A stretch of DNA of 64,000 nt, from contig JAFRLH010000015.1 of assembly GCA_017431345.1 (NCBI GenBank), positions 1 through 64,000 on the forward strand. Direction: 5' to 3'. The position numbers and the translations under genes are program-made. Under the pieces are notes generated by a model, which saw only the letters and a program-made list of their open reading frames with translations, searched no databases and was not told where the DNA came from. Source of the DNA: Lachnospiraceae bacterium (GTDB lineage Bacteria; Bacillota; Clostridia; Lachnospirales; Lachnospiraceae). Each line of letters starts with the position of its first letter. Positions within the stretch are counted from its first letter, which is position 1. Of this stretch, positions 1 through 35,171 are shown piece after piece.

Positions 1-89
1 AACTGCCTGATTGGTTTTTTCTATTATGACCGGTGATCAAAAATAAATAACAACGAAAGACTGTAATCAGCTTTTTGAAAAAACGCGTA

Positions 90-620
90 GCTCGCACTTG
101 TGCGATCAGAAGGGTTTGGGATTATCCCAACAAGCCAGGTTTGGCGAAAGTAGTTCCGATCCGGATCGGAACACTGCTCGCCAAGTTCTGGAACCGTCCA
201 TCGGGACACTGCTTGCCAGTTACCGAGGTAAGGACGGTTCCAGACGAAAATCTGCATACTCTTACGAGTATGCCCTGCTTGCCAAGTACTGAAAGATGGG
301 CAAGACAGGACGTTGACGGCTGAAACCGTCAACCGCTTTCGGGTATATTGACAGTTCAAATCTGTGTTGGTATATTTGTATCGGTCCTGAAAATGGATTT
401 TGGGGGGAATCGGGTTCATCCCGATTCGTTGCCGGTTCTCTCCCCATGACGGGGTGGGTTATCGGCTTATATAGGGTATCTGTCAGATAGGCAGATACAG
501 TGGGCCGCATCAGGGCAGCTACCGGCTTTTTGACTGCCGGGTTACATAGACACATATCGATCAAGGCGGACTCTCCGGGTTCGTCTATCGGTGCGTTTCT
601 ATGTGACCCGGCTCTTTTTG
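90..620 (+). ncRNA. Gene-free hairpin array, candidate structured RNA
   Basis: No plausible gene is seen in 1-590. The stretch carries about ten inverted repeats: 92-105, 116-130, 153-172 (a perfect 20-base palindrome), 187-199 with 232-244 (13 perfect pairs), 254-273, 312-333, 407-427, 476-498, 514-538 and 537-550 with 598-611. Helix 141-147/178-184 encloses the 153-172 hairpin, so the structure is nested. A motif like CTGCTYGCCAAGT recurs near 174, 208 and 275. The last stem is followed by CTTTTT at 612-619, as in an intrinsic terminator reading rightward. The RNA class is not recognised; calling it an RNA is inference. Confidence 0.45.
598..619 (+). terminator. Terminator or attenuator before tnpW-like gene
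   Basis: The arm at 598-611 pairs with 537-550 (14 pairs, one G-U) and is followed by a T-rich run (CTTTTTG). It ends the hairpin array and lies about 20 bases before the AAGGAG site of the next gene, so it could separate the RNA from the recombinase operon or attenuate read-through. Confidence 0.4.
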
Positions 621-653
621 TCCGGAAATATGAGAAAAAGGAGAACAGCCAAA

Positions 654-848
654 ATGAGAAACGTAAGAATTAACGAAGCCGGTCACATCGTGGTGAAGAA
701 TCTTTCGGCCTGGTGGATCCCGGAGATCAAGGTTCAACGTGAGATCCACGGAACCGTCTACACCGTCACCGGCAGCTATGAAGGAACAGAACTTCCCGAC
801 CGGAAGCTCGCCCGCATCCTGCTGAAAAATGTGGAGGATGCCAAATGA
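654..848 (+). CDS. TnpW-like small transposon protein
   Basis: This 64-residue protein resembles the small TnpW-type proteins carried by Tn4451-like elements. The recognisable part is the second half, where REIHGTVYTVTGSYEG is followed by a basic LARILLKN segment. The ATG at 654 is chosen over an upstream in-frame ATG at 591 because AAGGAG lies at 638-643. Its stop overlaps the start of the recombinase gene (ATGA at 845-848), so the two are probably translationally coupled. TnpW's role is not established; accessory function in excision is only inferred from context. Other short DNA-binding or regulatory functions remain possible. Confidence 0.5.
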   Translation: MRNVRINEAGHIVVKNLSAWWIPEIKVQREIHGTVYTVTGSYEGTELPDRKLARILLKNVEDAK

Positions 849-2563
849 CAAGCGAGAGGAATTCGGTTATAATGGCACCAGCCAATCCTGTTAAGACAGT
901 TGCCCCTGAAAAGGAGGAAACAGAAATGATAAGGGCAACTGAAAAGATCACAGCACTATACTGCCGTCTGTCCCAGGAAGATGAGAGACTCGGCGAGTCG
1001 CTTTCCATCGAAAACCAGAAACGTATCCTTGAAGCATATGCAAAGGAACATCGTTTTCCAAATCCGGTATTCTTTGTAGATGACGGATACAGCGGAACAG
1101 ACTTTAACCGTCCCGGCTTCCAGGCCATGCTGAACGAAATCGAGTCTGACCATGTAGCGGTACTTTTGACAAAAGACCTGTCGCGTCTCGGACGTAACTC
1201 AACAATGACGGGGATGTTCATCAACATCACTTTTGCAAAACATGACGTCCGCTATATTGCCATCAATGACAATTTCGATTCTGCCAATCAGAACAGCGTG
1301 GACAATGACTTTGCCGGGATCCGGATGTGGTTCAACGAGTTTTACGCCAGGGATACCAGCAGGAAGATCCGCGCGGTCAACAAGGCTAAAGGTGAACGAG
1401 GAGAGCATCTGACAACAAACCCGCCCTTCGGATATATCAAAGATCCGGAGAATTCAAAACAGTGGATCATCGATGAAGAGGCCGCCAAGGTGGTTAGGCA
1501 CATCTTTGATCTCTGTATGGAAGGCCGGGGGCCGATGCAGATCGCAAAGCAACTGACGGAAGAAAAGGTTCTGACCATTACTGCATACACGATCAAAGAA
1601 GGACGGAAAGGGCTCGCTCCTGCGCCTGAGGATCCATACCATTGGGATTCCACTTCTGTGGTGGGAATTCTGGAGACAAGGGACTATACCGGCTGTACCG
1701 TGAACTTCAAGACCTACACCAATTCGATTTGGGACAAAAAGACCAGAGAGAATCCGGTGGAGAAGCAGGCGATCTTCTACAACACCCAACCTGCTATCAT
1801 CGATCCGGAGGTGTATGAAAAGGTCCAGGAGATACGGTCACAGCGGCATCGGCGAACCAAGACGGGCAAATCCCATATGTTTTCCGGTTTGGTCTATTGT
1901 GCAGACTGCAAATCCAGAATGTACTACTGCACCACCAGTTACTTCGAGGAACGCCAGGATCATTTCGTCTGCGCCAACTACAGGAGCAACACAGGCTCGT
2001 GCTCGGCTCATTTCATCCGGGCGGTCGTTTTGGAACAAATGGTCTGGGAGCATCTCAAAGAAGTCATCTGGTACGTAGGCCACTATGAGAGTCATTTCAG
2101 GTCAATCATGGAGGCTAAGCTTCAGGCAGAGAGTAAAGAGACCCTTCGGGTAAAGCGGAAGCAACTGGAAAAGGATGAGAAGCGTATTCAGGAACTTGAT
2201 CGTCTGTTCATCCATCTGTATGAGGACAATGTGGCTTCCCGGATCAGTGATGACCGTTTCACTATGATGAGTCAGGCCTATGAGAGCGAACAGTATGATC
2301 TGAAAGCGGAAGCGGAAGTCTTACGGCAGGAAATCGAAACACAGGAACAACAGAACCAGAATCTTGAACAATTCATTCAGAAGGCCAGAAAGTACGCAGA
2401 GCTGACGGAACTCACGCCCTATGTGGCCCATGAGCTGATAAAGGCAATCTATGTCGGAGCTCCTGATAAAAGCAGCGGAAAACGCCGCCAGAGCATCCAT
2501 ATCTGCTATGATCTGATCGGGTTCATCCCGCTGAGTGAACTGATGACACAGGAAATGGCATGA
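845..2563 (+). CDS. TnpX-type large serine recombinase
   Basis: A 572-residue site-specific recombinase of the large serine resolvase/invertase group, which would cut and rejoin the element ends by a covalent serine-DNA intermediate. The N-terminal catalytic domain starts near residue 35 with ALYCRLSQED, placing the nucleophile at Ser43, followed by GYSGTDFNRPGF and the LLTKDLSRLGRN segment. A recombinase domain follows (about 190-340), then a zinc ribbon (YCADCKSRMYYC with CANYRSNTGSC, about 355-395), a coiled coil (about 430-510) and a DUF4368-like tail. This layout matches TnpX of Tn4451. Such genes usually sit at one end of their element, so an attachment site should lie just beyond 2563 or far to the left. 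Confidence 0.9.
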   Translation: MTSERNSVIMAPANPVKTVAPEKEETEMIRATEKITALYCRLSQEDERLGESLSIENQKRILEAYAKEHRFPNPVFFVDDGYSGTDFNRPGFQAMLNEIESDHVAVLLTKDLSRLGRNSTMTGMFINITFAKHDVRYIAINDNFDSANQNSVDNDFAGIRMWFNEFYARDTSRKIRAVNKAKGERGEHLTTNPPFGYIKDPENSKQWIIDEEAAKVVRHIFDLCMEGRGPMQIAKQLTEEKVLTITAYTIKEGRKGLAPAPEDPYHWDSTSVVGILETRDYTGCTVNFKTYTNSIWDKKTRENPVEKQAIFYNTQPAIIDPEVYEKVQEIRSQRHRRTKTGKSHMFSGLVYCADCKSRMYYCTTSYFEERQDHFVCANYRSNTGSCSAHFIRAVVLEQMVWEHLKEVIWYVGHYESHFRSIMEAKLQAESKETLRVKRKQLEKDEKRIQELDRLFIHLYEDNVASRISDDRFTMMSQAYESEQYDLKAEAEVLRQEIETQEQQNQNLEQFIQKARKYAELTELTPYVAHELIKAIYVGAPDKSSGKRRQSIHICYDLIGFIPLSELMTQEMA

Positions 2564-2608
2564 CCCGAAGATCATGCCATTCCTGAAAACTATAAAACTG
2601 TCTTATGA

Positions 2609-2636
2609 GGGCCGCCCGTCAGGCGCCCGGTTTTTT
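2609..2636 (+). terminator. Intrinsic terminator after recombinase
   Basis: GGG-C-CGCC pairs with GGCG-CCC around a five-base loop and is followed by six T residues. It lies 46 bases after the recombinase stop. Confidence 0.75.
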
Positions 2637-18656: not shown

Positions 18657-18690
18657 TTCTATCCTCCTGGATCCTGTCAAAAAACTTCCG

Positions 18691-19047
18691 GCCGAGCAGG
18701 ACTGTAAGCCGGGTTCTGTCGTGAATGATCATCTGTCTACGACTGCCGTTGCCGACAGCCTCAAGCGACCTACCCGGGAGCAGACGGGCCGCCCTGCGCT
18801 CCCTGTTTGGTCTTGCTTCGGATGGGGTTTACAATGCCCTGCACGTTACCGTACAGGCGGTAGTCTCTTACACTGCCTTTTCAACCTTACCGGATCCCCG
18901 GCGGTATGTTTTCTGCTGCACTTTCCTTGGAGTCGCCTCCACCGGCCGTTAACCGGCATCCTGCCCTGCGAAGCCCGGACTTTCCTCATCCGCAGCTGTT
19001 CCGGATATTCCGGCGTTTCTGCGTCCGCGATCATTCATCCTGCTCGG
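18691..19047 (-). ncRNA. rnpB: RNase P RNA, class A
   Basis: The catalytic RNA that cuts the 5' leader from tRNA precursors. Read leftward the ends pair as P1: CCGAGCAGGA near 19047 with TCCTGCTCGG near 18692. Conserved blocks are GAGGAAAGTCCGGGCT near 18985, GGGTAGGTCGCTTGAGG-type sequence near 18770, and ACAGAACCCGGCTTA near the 3' end. Length is about 357 bases, normal for class A. A T-run follows the 3' end. Confidence 0.95.

Positions 19048-35098: not shown

Positions 35099-35171
<73 letters not shown>

Follow-up and report, generated by a model that had tools for sequence, protein, structure and literature searches.

What is the hairpin-rich stretch at positions 90–620, upstream of a large serine recombinase gene, for? 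It lies in the window (the whole 64-kb stretch of DNA that was analysed, which starts at a contig edge, G000:C16:1), and the sequence-only reading had offered one large ornate RNA, a recombination region or a set of binding sites as answers. The stretch is two different things, an oriT-like array on the left (86–300) and a promoter with a leader RNA on the right (348–622). For the left half, binding sites came closest among the three, in the form of relaxosome (oriT) sites. With a probability of roughly three in four, we read the locus as a relaxase-less integrative mobilizable element with a putative tandem array of three oriT units and a separate structured leader RNA.

Inverted repeats, nic motifs and a leader RNA

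A re-scan of the sequence recovered the reported stems and motifs at 90–620. The 20-base palindrome (GTTCCGATCCGGATCGGAAC, 153–172) and the 13-pair stem (187–199/232–244) were perfect, as was an 8-pair hairpin at 254–273. A further 8-pair stem was located at 407–414/420–427, and the terminal stem with its T-run was present (536–561/587–612, then TCTTTTT). The recurring motif had three copies (174, 209 and 275), the middle one (CTGCTTGCCAGT) being shorter by one A, and the described nesting of helices was seen in the 13-pair stem, which encloses the second copy. The claim of ten inverted repeats was right as to abundance but not as to the exact count, with 17 inverted-repeat pairs in 1–1000 at the scan thresholds. 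Similarly, the stem density was high and above chance but not unique within the window: 8-mer inverted pairs at most 60 nt apart numbered 12 in 90–620 versus a mean of 1.4 per 531-nt tile, and 12 pairs were reached by 4 of 318 tiles of the window, one of which (tile 1–531) overlaps 90–620. Folding of 86–300 as single-stranded DNA gave a z of -7.5 and folding of 384–625 as RNA a z of -7.9, with 0/200 shuffles equally stable in each case. TGCTYGCCA occurred four times in 64 kb, three of them in the array; the whole-window count was not far above chance (shuffle mean 1.3, with 4/100 shuffles reaching 4), and the clustering is the unusual part.

The segment 86–300 is most likely an array of three origins of transfer, all on the + strand, in which one proximal inverted repeat is followed by three inverted-repeat/nic units. 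The nic sites tabulated in the available part of PMC7755788 are RYGCTTG|C for Tn1549 and TGCTTG|CCA for pRJ6 (row tagged P7). Judged by its letters, CTGCTYGCCA is this pRJ6/Tn1549 nic motif in three copies, each standing 3' of an inverted repeat. The array opens with a hairpin (TCGCAC-TT-GTGCGA, 92–105) that reads TCACAC/GTGTGA in relatives, a compensatory change by eye, and continues with the core of the putative oriT proximal repeat (IR1; AAGGGTTTGGGATTATCCCAACAAGC, 110–135). Predicted unit 1 (153–183) consists of the 20-base palindrome and a nic-like TGCTCG|CCA at 175–183. In predicted unit 2 (187–244), the nic TGCTTG|CCA (210–218) lies in the loop of the 13-pair stem and is preceded by a short arm, ATCGGGAC. 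Predicted unit 3 (254–284) joins the hairpin GCATACTC-TTAC-GAGTATGC (254–273) to a nic TGCTTG|CCA at 276–284, the hairpin-nic layout of single sites found elsewhere in the host family. The nic core TGCTTG|CYA was thus exact in two of the three units, and the TGCTCG of unit 1 was also present in relatives L032, L035, L091, L097 and L108. The inverted repeats end at most 4 nt 5' of the nic, with stem scores of 8 for units 1 and 3 and 5.5 for unit 2. The right arms of units 1 and 2 are nearly alike (ATCGGAAC/ATCGGGAC), evidence against a distinct specificity for each of the three units. Downstream of unit 3 lies a copy of the nic region, inverted and imperfect (GGGCAAGaCAGG, 298–309; by eye). Such a copy follows the last nic in array relatives and is cleaner in L038 (TGGCAAGCAGT) and behind the internal nic motifs of L080 (both by eye).

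The best promoter-like site, TTGACA-17-TATATT (348–376, + strand; 11/12, with TG before the second hexamer), was located downstream of the repeated motifs, and the promoter scan listed none on the + strand before 320. Its TTGACAG was invariant in the homologue alignment. A structured leader RNA or candidate small RNA probably runs from 384, a start deduced from the promoter, to 622, and its end coincides with a predicted intrinsic terminator with a T tract upstream of the ORFs (536–619). The terminator helix has 24 pairs in the alignment, the outer 15 nearly invariant; 536–619 was not among the matches of a simple terminator scan, which allows loops of 3–8 only. The alignment of homologues that the sequence-only reading had proposed as a check revealed covariation in this right half. 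For ten aligned sequences, RNAalifold yielded 83 pairs, 12 of them with changes on both sides. Within a 62-pair core, 98.5% of the cells pair, and double-change cells numbered 26 versus 10.3 in shuffles (0/500 as high), while slid partner structures gave 0–3. Two statistics point the other way: pairs with double changes numbered 8, which 59/500 shuffles reached, and the 24 further pair types were below the shuffled mean of 27.7. On balance a structured RNA is supported, smaller than the one originally proposed and in the right half; it may attenuate the downstream genes or act as a small RNA.

A covariance model built on 474–622 (R1) had a single match in 391 class genomes, in its own genome. 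In 48 of the loci gathered here, about a quarter of them and including the rabbit-gut arrays and single-site regions described below, it found no new member; its matches were its own source sequences (the window; L154, L155, L156 containing L020, L034 and L004) and a cut copy in L091, and a match in L121 was at chance level. The covariance search against known RNA families, also proposed earlier, returned nothing relevant, with no Rfam match at gathering in 86–622 from either the whole window or 1–1000; the best row in 1–1000 was psRNA2 on the minus strand (E 1.5, searched to E 5). ROOL, GOLLD, raiA and HEARO were presumably among the 4227 models searched. Elsewhere in the window, the same scan located a class A RNase P RNA (18689–19046, minus strand) and a tRNA (35099–35171).

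The same motif beside relaxase genes

When window 85–660 was searched against 299 genomes of the family, 17 matched, its own included, and many short matches covered 106–135. The 26-nt core (110–135) was exact at nine places in eight other family genomes. Seven of these nine loci (L007, L008, L010–L013 and L021), near-copies of one ICE, adjoin relaxase and MobC genes, so that the proximal repeat of the array and that of relaxase-linked sites are identical at 26/26 positions. The genes in L007 are those of a PF03432 relaxase and a NikA-like/MobC protein, and the core there is followed by a hairpin and TGTGCTTGCTA. The two remaining exact cores (L009 and L023) precede another gene, with no relaxase or MobC beside them. 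Near-exact cores in L006, L014, L016 and L024 adjoin a second ICE-type relaxase (67–79% identical protein). The proposition that all 26-nt core sites are relaxase-operon oriTs was rejected, as L009, L023, L122 and L157 precede other genes. At up to one mismatch, the core was found in 6/291 class genomes, its own included, and a reversed control in 0 among the matches listed.

A more general pattern (CCCAACRAGC, 20–50 nt, TGCTTGCYA), which is our own and not a published definition, matched 45 places in 41/397 family genomes; among the matches listed, its reversed control had 0. The window array is not matched, because unit 1 has TGCTCG and unit 2 is separated from the proximal repeat by over 50 nt. 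Thirty pattern loci were examined, of which 18 had a relaxase match (a short fragment in two cases) and a further one had a MobC match, all within 1.5 kb; seven of the 18 were near-copies of one ICE. The other 11 comprised one array element (L125) and ten loci without a relaxase or MobC match nearby. In wider regions around single sites (4.8 to 14 kb each), 0/10 had a relaxase match with the models built here, which may miss distant relaxases. Five of these ten regions were viewed as ORF lists (L179, L180, L181, L183 and L187), and in each the oriT-like site stood near the start of a small integrase-bearing element. Pfam searches of three detected a RepA_N protein (L179), a Tn916-type integrase (L180), and a serine recombinase with a NikA-like/MobC protein (L187). 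The survey thus indicates that this oriT type occurs both with and without an adjoining relaxase; since cores also precede other genes and single-site loci often had no relaxase, the relaxase linkage is partial. No stem identical to that of any window unit was seen by eye among the matches listed of pattern sites. One Tn1549-like ICE (by eye; L157) had two oriT-like sites in opposite orientation, 5788(-) and 12802(+), each with a proximal repeat and one nic, one before mobC-mobA and the other before a 1115-aa gene.

A small element and its relatives

Window 69–2617 is most likely an integrative element without cargo, about 2.5 kb long, judging from relatives with unrelated flanks, with which similarity starts at about 69 and ends near 2617–2641. 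The putative left terminal hairpin (69–86, + strand), where similarity to relatives with unrelated left flanks begins, is imperfect in the window. In relatives it reads GCGT-GAAA-ACGC, GCGTTTT-GC-AAAAACGC, GCGTCCC-n-GGGACGC or GCATTTT-GC-AAAAATGC, stem letters that vary yet still pair (by eye). The right end (2600–2633, + strand), placed by the same comparison, abuts a hairpin and T tract that are partly those of a host terminator. The recombinase gene (845–2563, + strand) encodes Resolvase, Recombinase, Zn_ribbon_recom and DUF4368 domains, and it is only in these that the earlier label "Tn4451-like" holds. A second start, ATG 926, has a ribosome-binding-like site, and a promoter-like site lies before it at 845–873; the true start may be 926. 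Upstream, a 64-aa ORF with a ribosome-binding-like site (654–848, + strand) had been called tnpW-like, a likeness by eye that gained no Pfam match (E 0.1) or NCBIfam match (E 0.01). No mob or cargo gene was seen between the element ends. The host genome (G000) had no PF03432 relaxase, so no helper is visible there. DNA similarity searches gave no phage match for 1–850, two weak plasmid matches for 1–2600, both in the recombinase, and one recombinase relative in viral contigs, cut at the contig end.

Both ends were recovered in 12 copies, eight of which had a left-to-right motif distance of 2392–2585 bp. The other four (L079, L091, L092 and L108) were internally deleted (498–1397 bp), resembling non-autonomous derivatives; all kept both ends and three kept at least two nic motifs, L079 showing no nic units. 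A GC-rich stretch with a T tract adjoins the right end in 12/12 copies, and the next gene on the right is oriented towards the element in 8/11 copies with enough right-hand sequence (both by eye). We dropped the claim that insertion invariably splits a host terminator, as the left flanks had no matching half (by eye). All 11 genomes of the genus contain the right flank; five loci besides the window's own were retrieved and three of them read. In L160 and L161 an uninterrupted terminator occupies the right-hand site, between a gene that we take by eye to be carB and the DUF3237 gene flanking the window element; in L162 another gene stands in place of the presumed carB. The presumed carB of L160 and L161 shows no match to the 68-nt left flank of the window, and G000 yielded no carB. 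With the flanks of the G238 copy as queries, only weak matches resulted. The left flanks of the window (11–38) and of L091 (about 2527–2555) have a common stretch, TTTTTTCTATWATGACCGGTGAT, and their right flanks differ; a TetR-like gene close to the left flank of L091 has its place within a different G000 contig and not at the edge of the window.

A scan of genome contigs for the recombinase returned 79 loci. Across all the loci then available, there were 17 distinct arrays, the window's included, each with two to six same-strand nic motifs spaced 32–36, 66–70 or 79–80 nt apart and with differing stems; L005 and L038, on the same contig, were counted once, and L020, L097 and L108 are cut or deleted copies. 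The stem test covered 50 units under a stricter motif, 46 of them distinct over 40 nt. A local stem score of at least 5 was reached by 36/46 array units versus 18.8% of shuffles (10/46 were below 5) and a score of at least 8 by 12/46 versus 0.6%. For 23 distinct single sites, the corresponding values were 22/23 (null 15.1%) and 2/23 (null 0.6%). Some units have arms in common, so the same left arm could form a stem ahead of one nic or another.

Arrays and relaxase genes were found apart. Counting motifs up to 900 nt upstream, in loci spanning at most about 3 kb upstream, 16 of 83 recombinase rows (15 distinct) had at least two nic motifs and no relaxase match, 24 had a relaxase match and no motif, and 43, many cut by contig ends, had neither. 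L073 is among the 43 only because a broken recombinase misplaced its upstream stretch, in which four motifs are present. No relaxase was detected in 16 array loci over the same upstream span. L042 has a NikA-like/MobC gene and no relaxase in the stretch covered. A recombinase tree of 50 of the 83 rows, with an arbitrary root and a few rows on very long branches, placed ten array rows in two groups. The window's clade (support 100/100) contains seven array rows and three unlabelled ones; a rabbit-gut clade of three array rows (100/96) falls outside the 40-row group (99/98) that holds the window's clade and 20 relaxase rows. Because the root is arbitrary, two gains of the array and one gain with losses cannot be separated on this tree. 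In L020/L154 (G238), the array and leader precede an HTH_36 protein, an HTH-like regulator and a serine recombinase of another type, so the RNA accompanies the array across more than one type of recombinase. The stretch in L154 (16449–19940, at a contig end) is a different small element headed by array and leader RNA.

Transfer by helpers, rival readings and known systems

Our best reading of the array is a multi-unit landing pad that may serve MOBP relaxases of other elements. The steps of nicking and transfer that we infer would begin when an element with a MOBP relaxase and a MobC/NikA-type accessory protein shares the cell with the window element, which its serine recombinase would excise as a circle. 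The foreign accessory protein would pick the array unit whose repeat fits, the helper relaxase would nick there, and the single strand would exit via the helper's channel. The differing stems would then correspond to differing helper specificities. A more ambitious version, which we put forward tentatively and would sooner doubt than accept, makes the array a multi-key origin: each stem-differing unit would serve a different MOBP relaxosome, cutting and rejoining from nic to nic would add, delete or swap units and so update the helper range, and the leader RNA would be part of the same hitchhiking module, since it is found with the array even before a different recombinase (L154).

The most serious competitor is a narrower form of the landing-pad reading, in which a single oriT works, probably unit 3, and the other units are decayed leftovers of slippage between short direct repeats. 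The deviating nic of unit 1 and the weak local stem of unit 2 fit this, as does the deleted copy L092, from whose array, set against that of L038, precisely two units are missing between nic motifs; the outcome of relaxase action could not be told there from that of slippage or homologous recombination. Against it, L032, L035 and L091 retain all three units, arrays recur in two clades, and stems within an array differ more than those of fresh slippage copies would. We hold this narrower form to be possible, if somewhat doubtful. It is improbable that the array is instead a replication origin of the excised circle, of iteron or rolling-circle type: the regular unit spacing and the HTH_36 (L154) or RepA_N (L179) protein adjoining the site would suit one, but neither of the two window-element ORFs tested matches a replication protein, and the nic motif and proximal repeat match oriT sites. 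Origin of transfer and of replication are not mutually exclusive.

Binding sites of the element's own serine recombinase or of a directionality factor near the attachment site would account for repeats at one element end beside the recombinase gene, and for the deleted copies that keep both ends and, in three of four cases, at least two nic motifs. This alternative has little to recommend it, however, given that unit number varies from two to six among copies with similar recombinases, that the same layout precedes relaxase operons and recurs in small elements that encode a Tn916-type integrase (L180) or a different serine recombinase, and that the deletion copy L079 has no nic units. We give still less credence to the proposal that the whole of 90–620 is one large structured RNA of a new family. 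Both halves fold strongly and 384–620 covaries, but there is no Rfam match at gathering, the promoter-like site at 348–376 leaves the left half outside the transcript, and the left half, which matches relaxase-linked DNA, varies from two to six units while the right half stays alignable.

The landing-pad reading has precedents in part. The Tn1549-type ICE and pRJ6 oriTs likewise have a nic TGCTTG|CYA directly 3' of an inverted repeat and a proximal repeat TTTGGG..CCCAACAAGC upstream; unlike the window, with three units and no mob genes, they have one nic unit before mobC-mobA. The comparison with Tn1549 used the tabulated nic motif and the sites of related ICEs. For Tn1549, the accessible text of PMC12857230 says that MobC brings the MOBP relaxase to oriT. 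Relaxase-less IMEs (MGIs, iOriT; MTnSag1, tISCpe8 and MGIVflInd1) are also integrative, with an oriT, an integrase and no relaxase; they are reviewed in section 3.2 of PMC5704250, and an excerpt of PMC11389934 names integrated elements with an oriT only "iOriT". MTnSag1 and tISCpe8 have a DDE transposase and MGIVflInd1 a tyrosine integrase, with one oriT described for each, whereas the window element has a large serine recombinase and a putative oriT array. As in those IMEs, its own recombinase is present and no relaxase was found. The ends of the window element recur in the 12 copies, and the terminator at the right-hand site is uninterrupted in L160/L161, whereas the left flank had no match. 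TnpX of Tn4451 carries DUF4368, as does the window recombinase. The Tn4451 family also has a large serine recombinase (PMC5704250, in part); unlike that family, the window element had no mob or cargo gene, and the TnpW label was not confirmed.

Multiple oriTs are known from S. aureus plasmids with pWBG749-type oriT mimics, which have mostly different IR2 repeats and are taken to reach several helpers (passages of PMC4652767 and PMC8136818). In the passages of PMC4652767, plasmids have two oriT copies (42) or three (15), most often of differing subfamily; two-oriT plasmids always have them on opposite strands, and same-strand oriTs recombine and are lost, which counts against the tandem-array reading. 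The putative array is by comparison integrative, tandem and on the same strand, with units in such arrays 32–80 nt apart. IR2 beside the oriT core is, in the part of PMC8136818 available, an accessory-protein site that sets mobilisation specificity. SGI1, a helper-dependent island, needs a small RNA (sgm-sRNA) encoded beside its oriT according to an excerpt of PMC9299015, and the leader RNA resembles it in its position.

Among the matches listed in openly licensed literature, no compact same-strand oriT array on an integrative element was described, and the sole occurrence of the phrase "oriT array" there denotes an oligonucleotide array. Relaxase-less elements and multiple plasmid oriTs are already known; the tandem same-strand array on a cargo-free element is the part not seen in the literature searched. 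The spread of small islands that lack conjugation genes is not yet understood. Should each unit serve a different helper, a very small mobile element would here extend its helper range through stacked start sites, and the natural variants with two to six units would be a ready test of the fit between repeat and relaxase. The combination of proximal repeat, stem and TGCTTGCYA offers a signature for finding relaxase-less hitchhikers, its pattern being present in 41 of the 397 sampled genomes of the host family.
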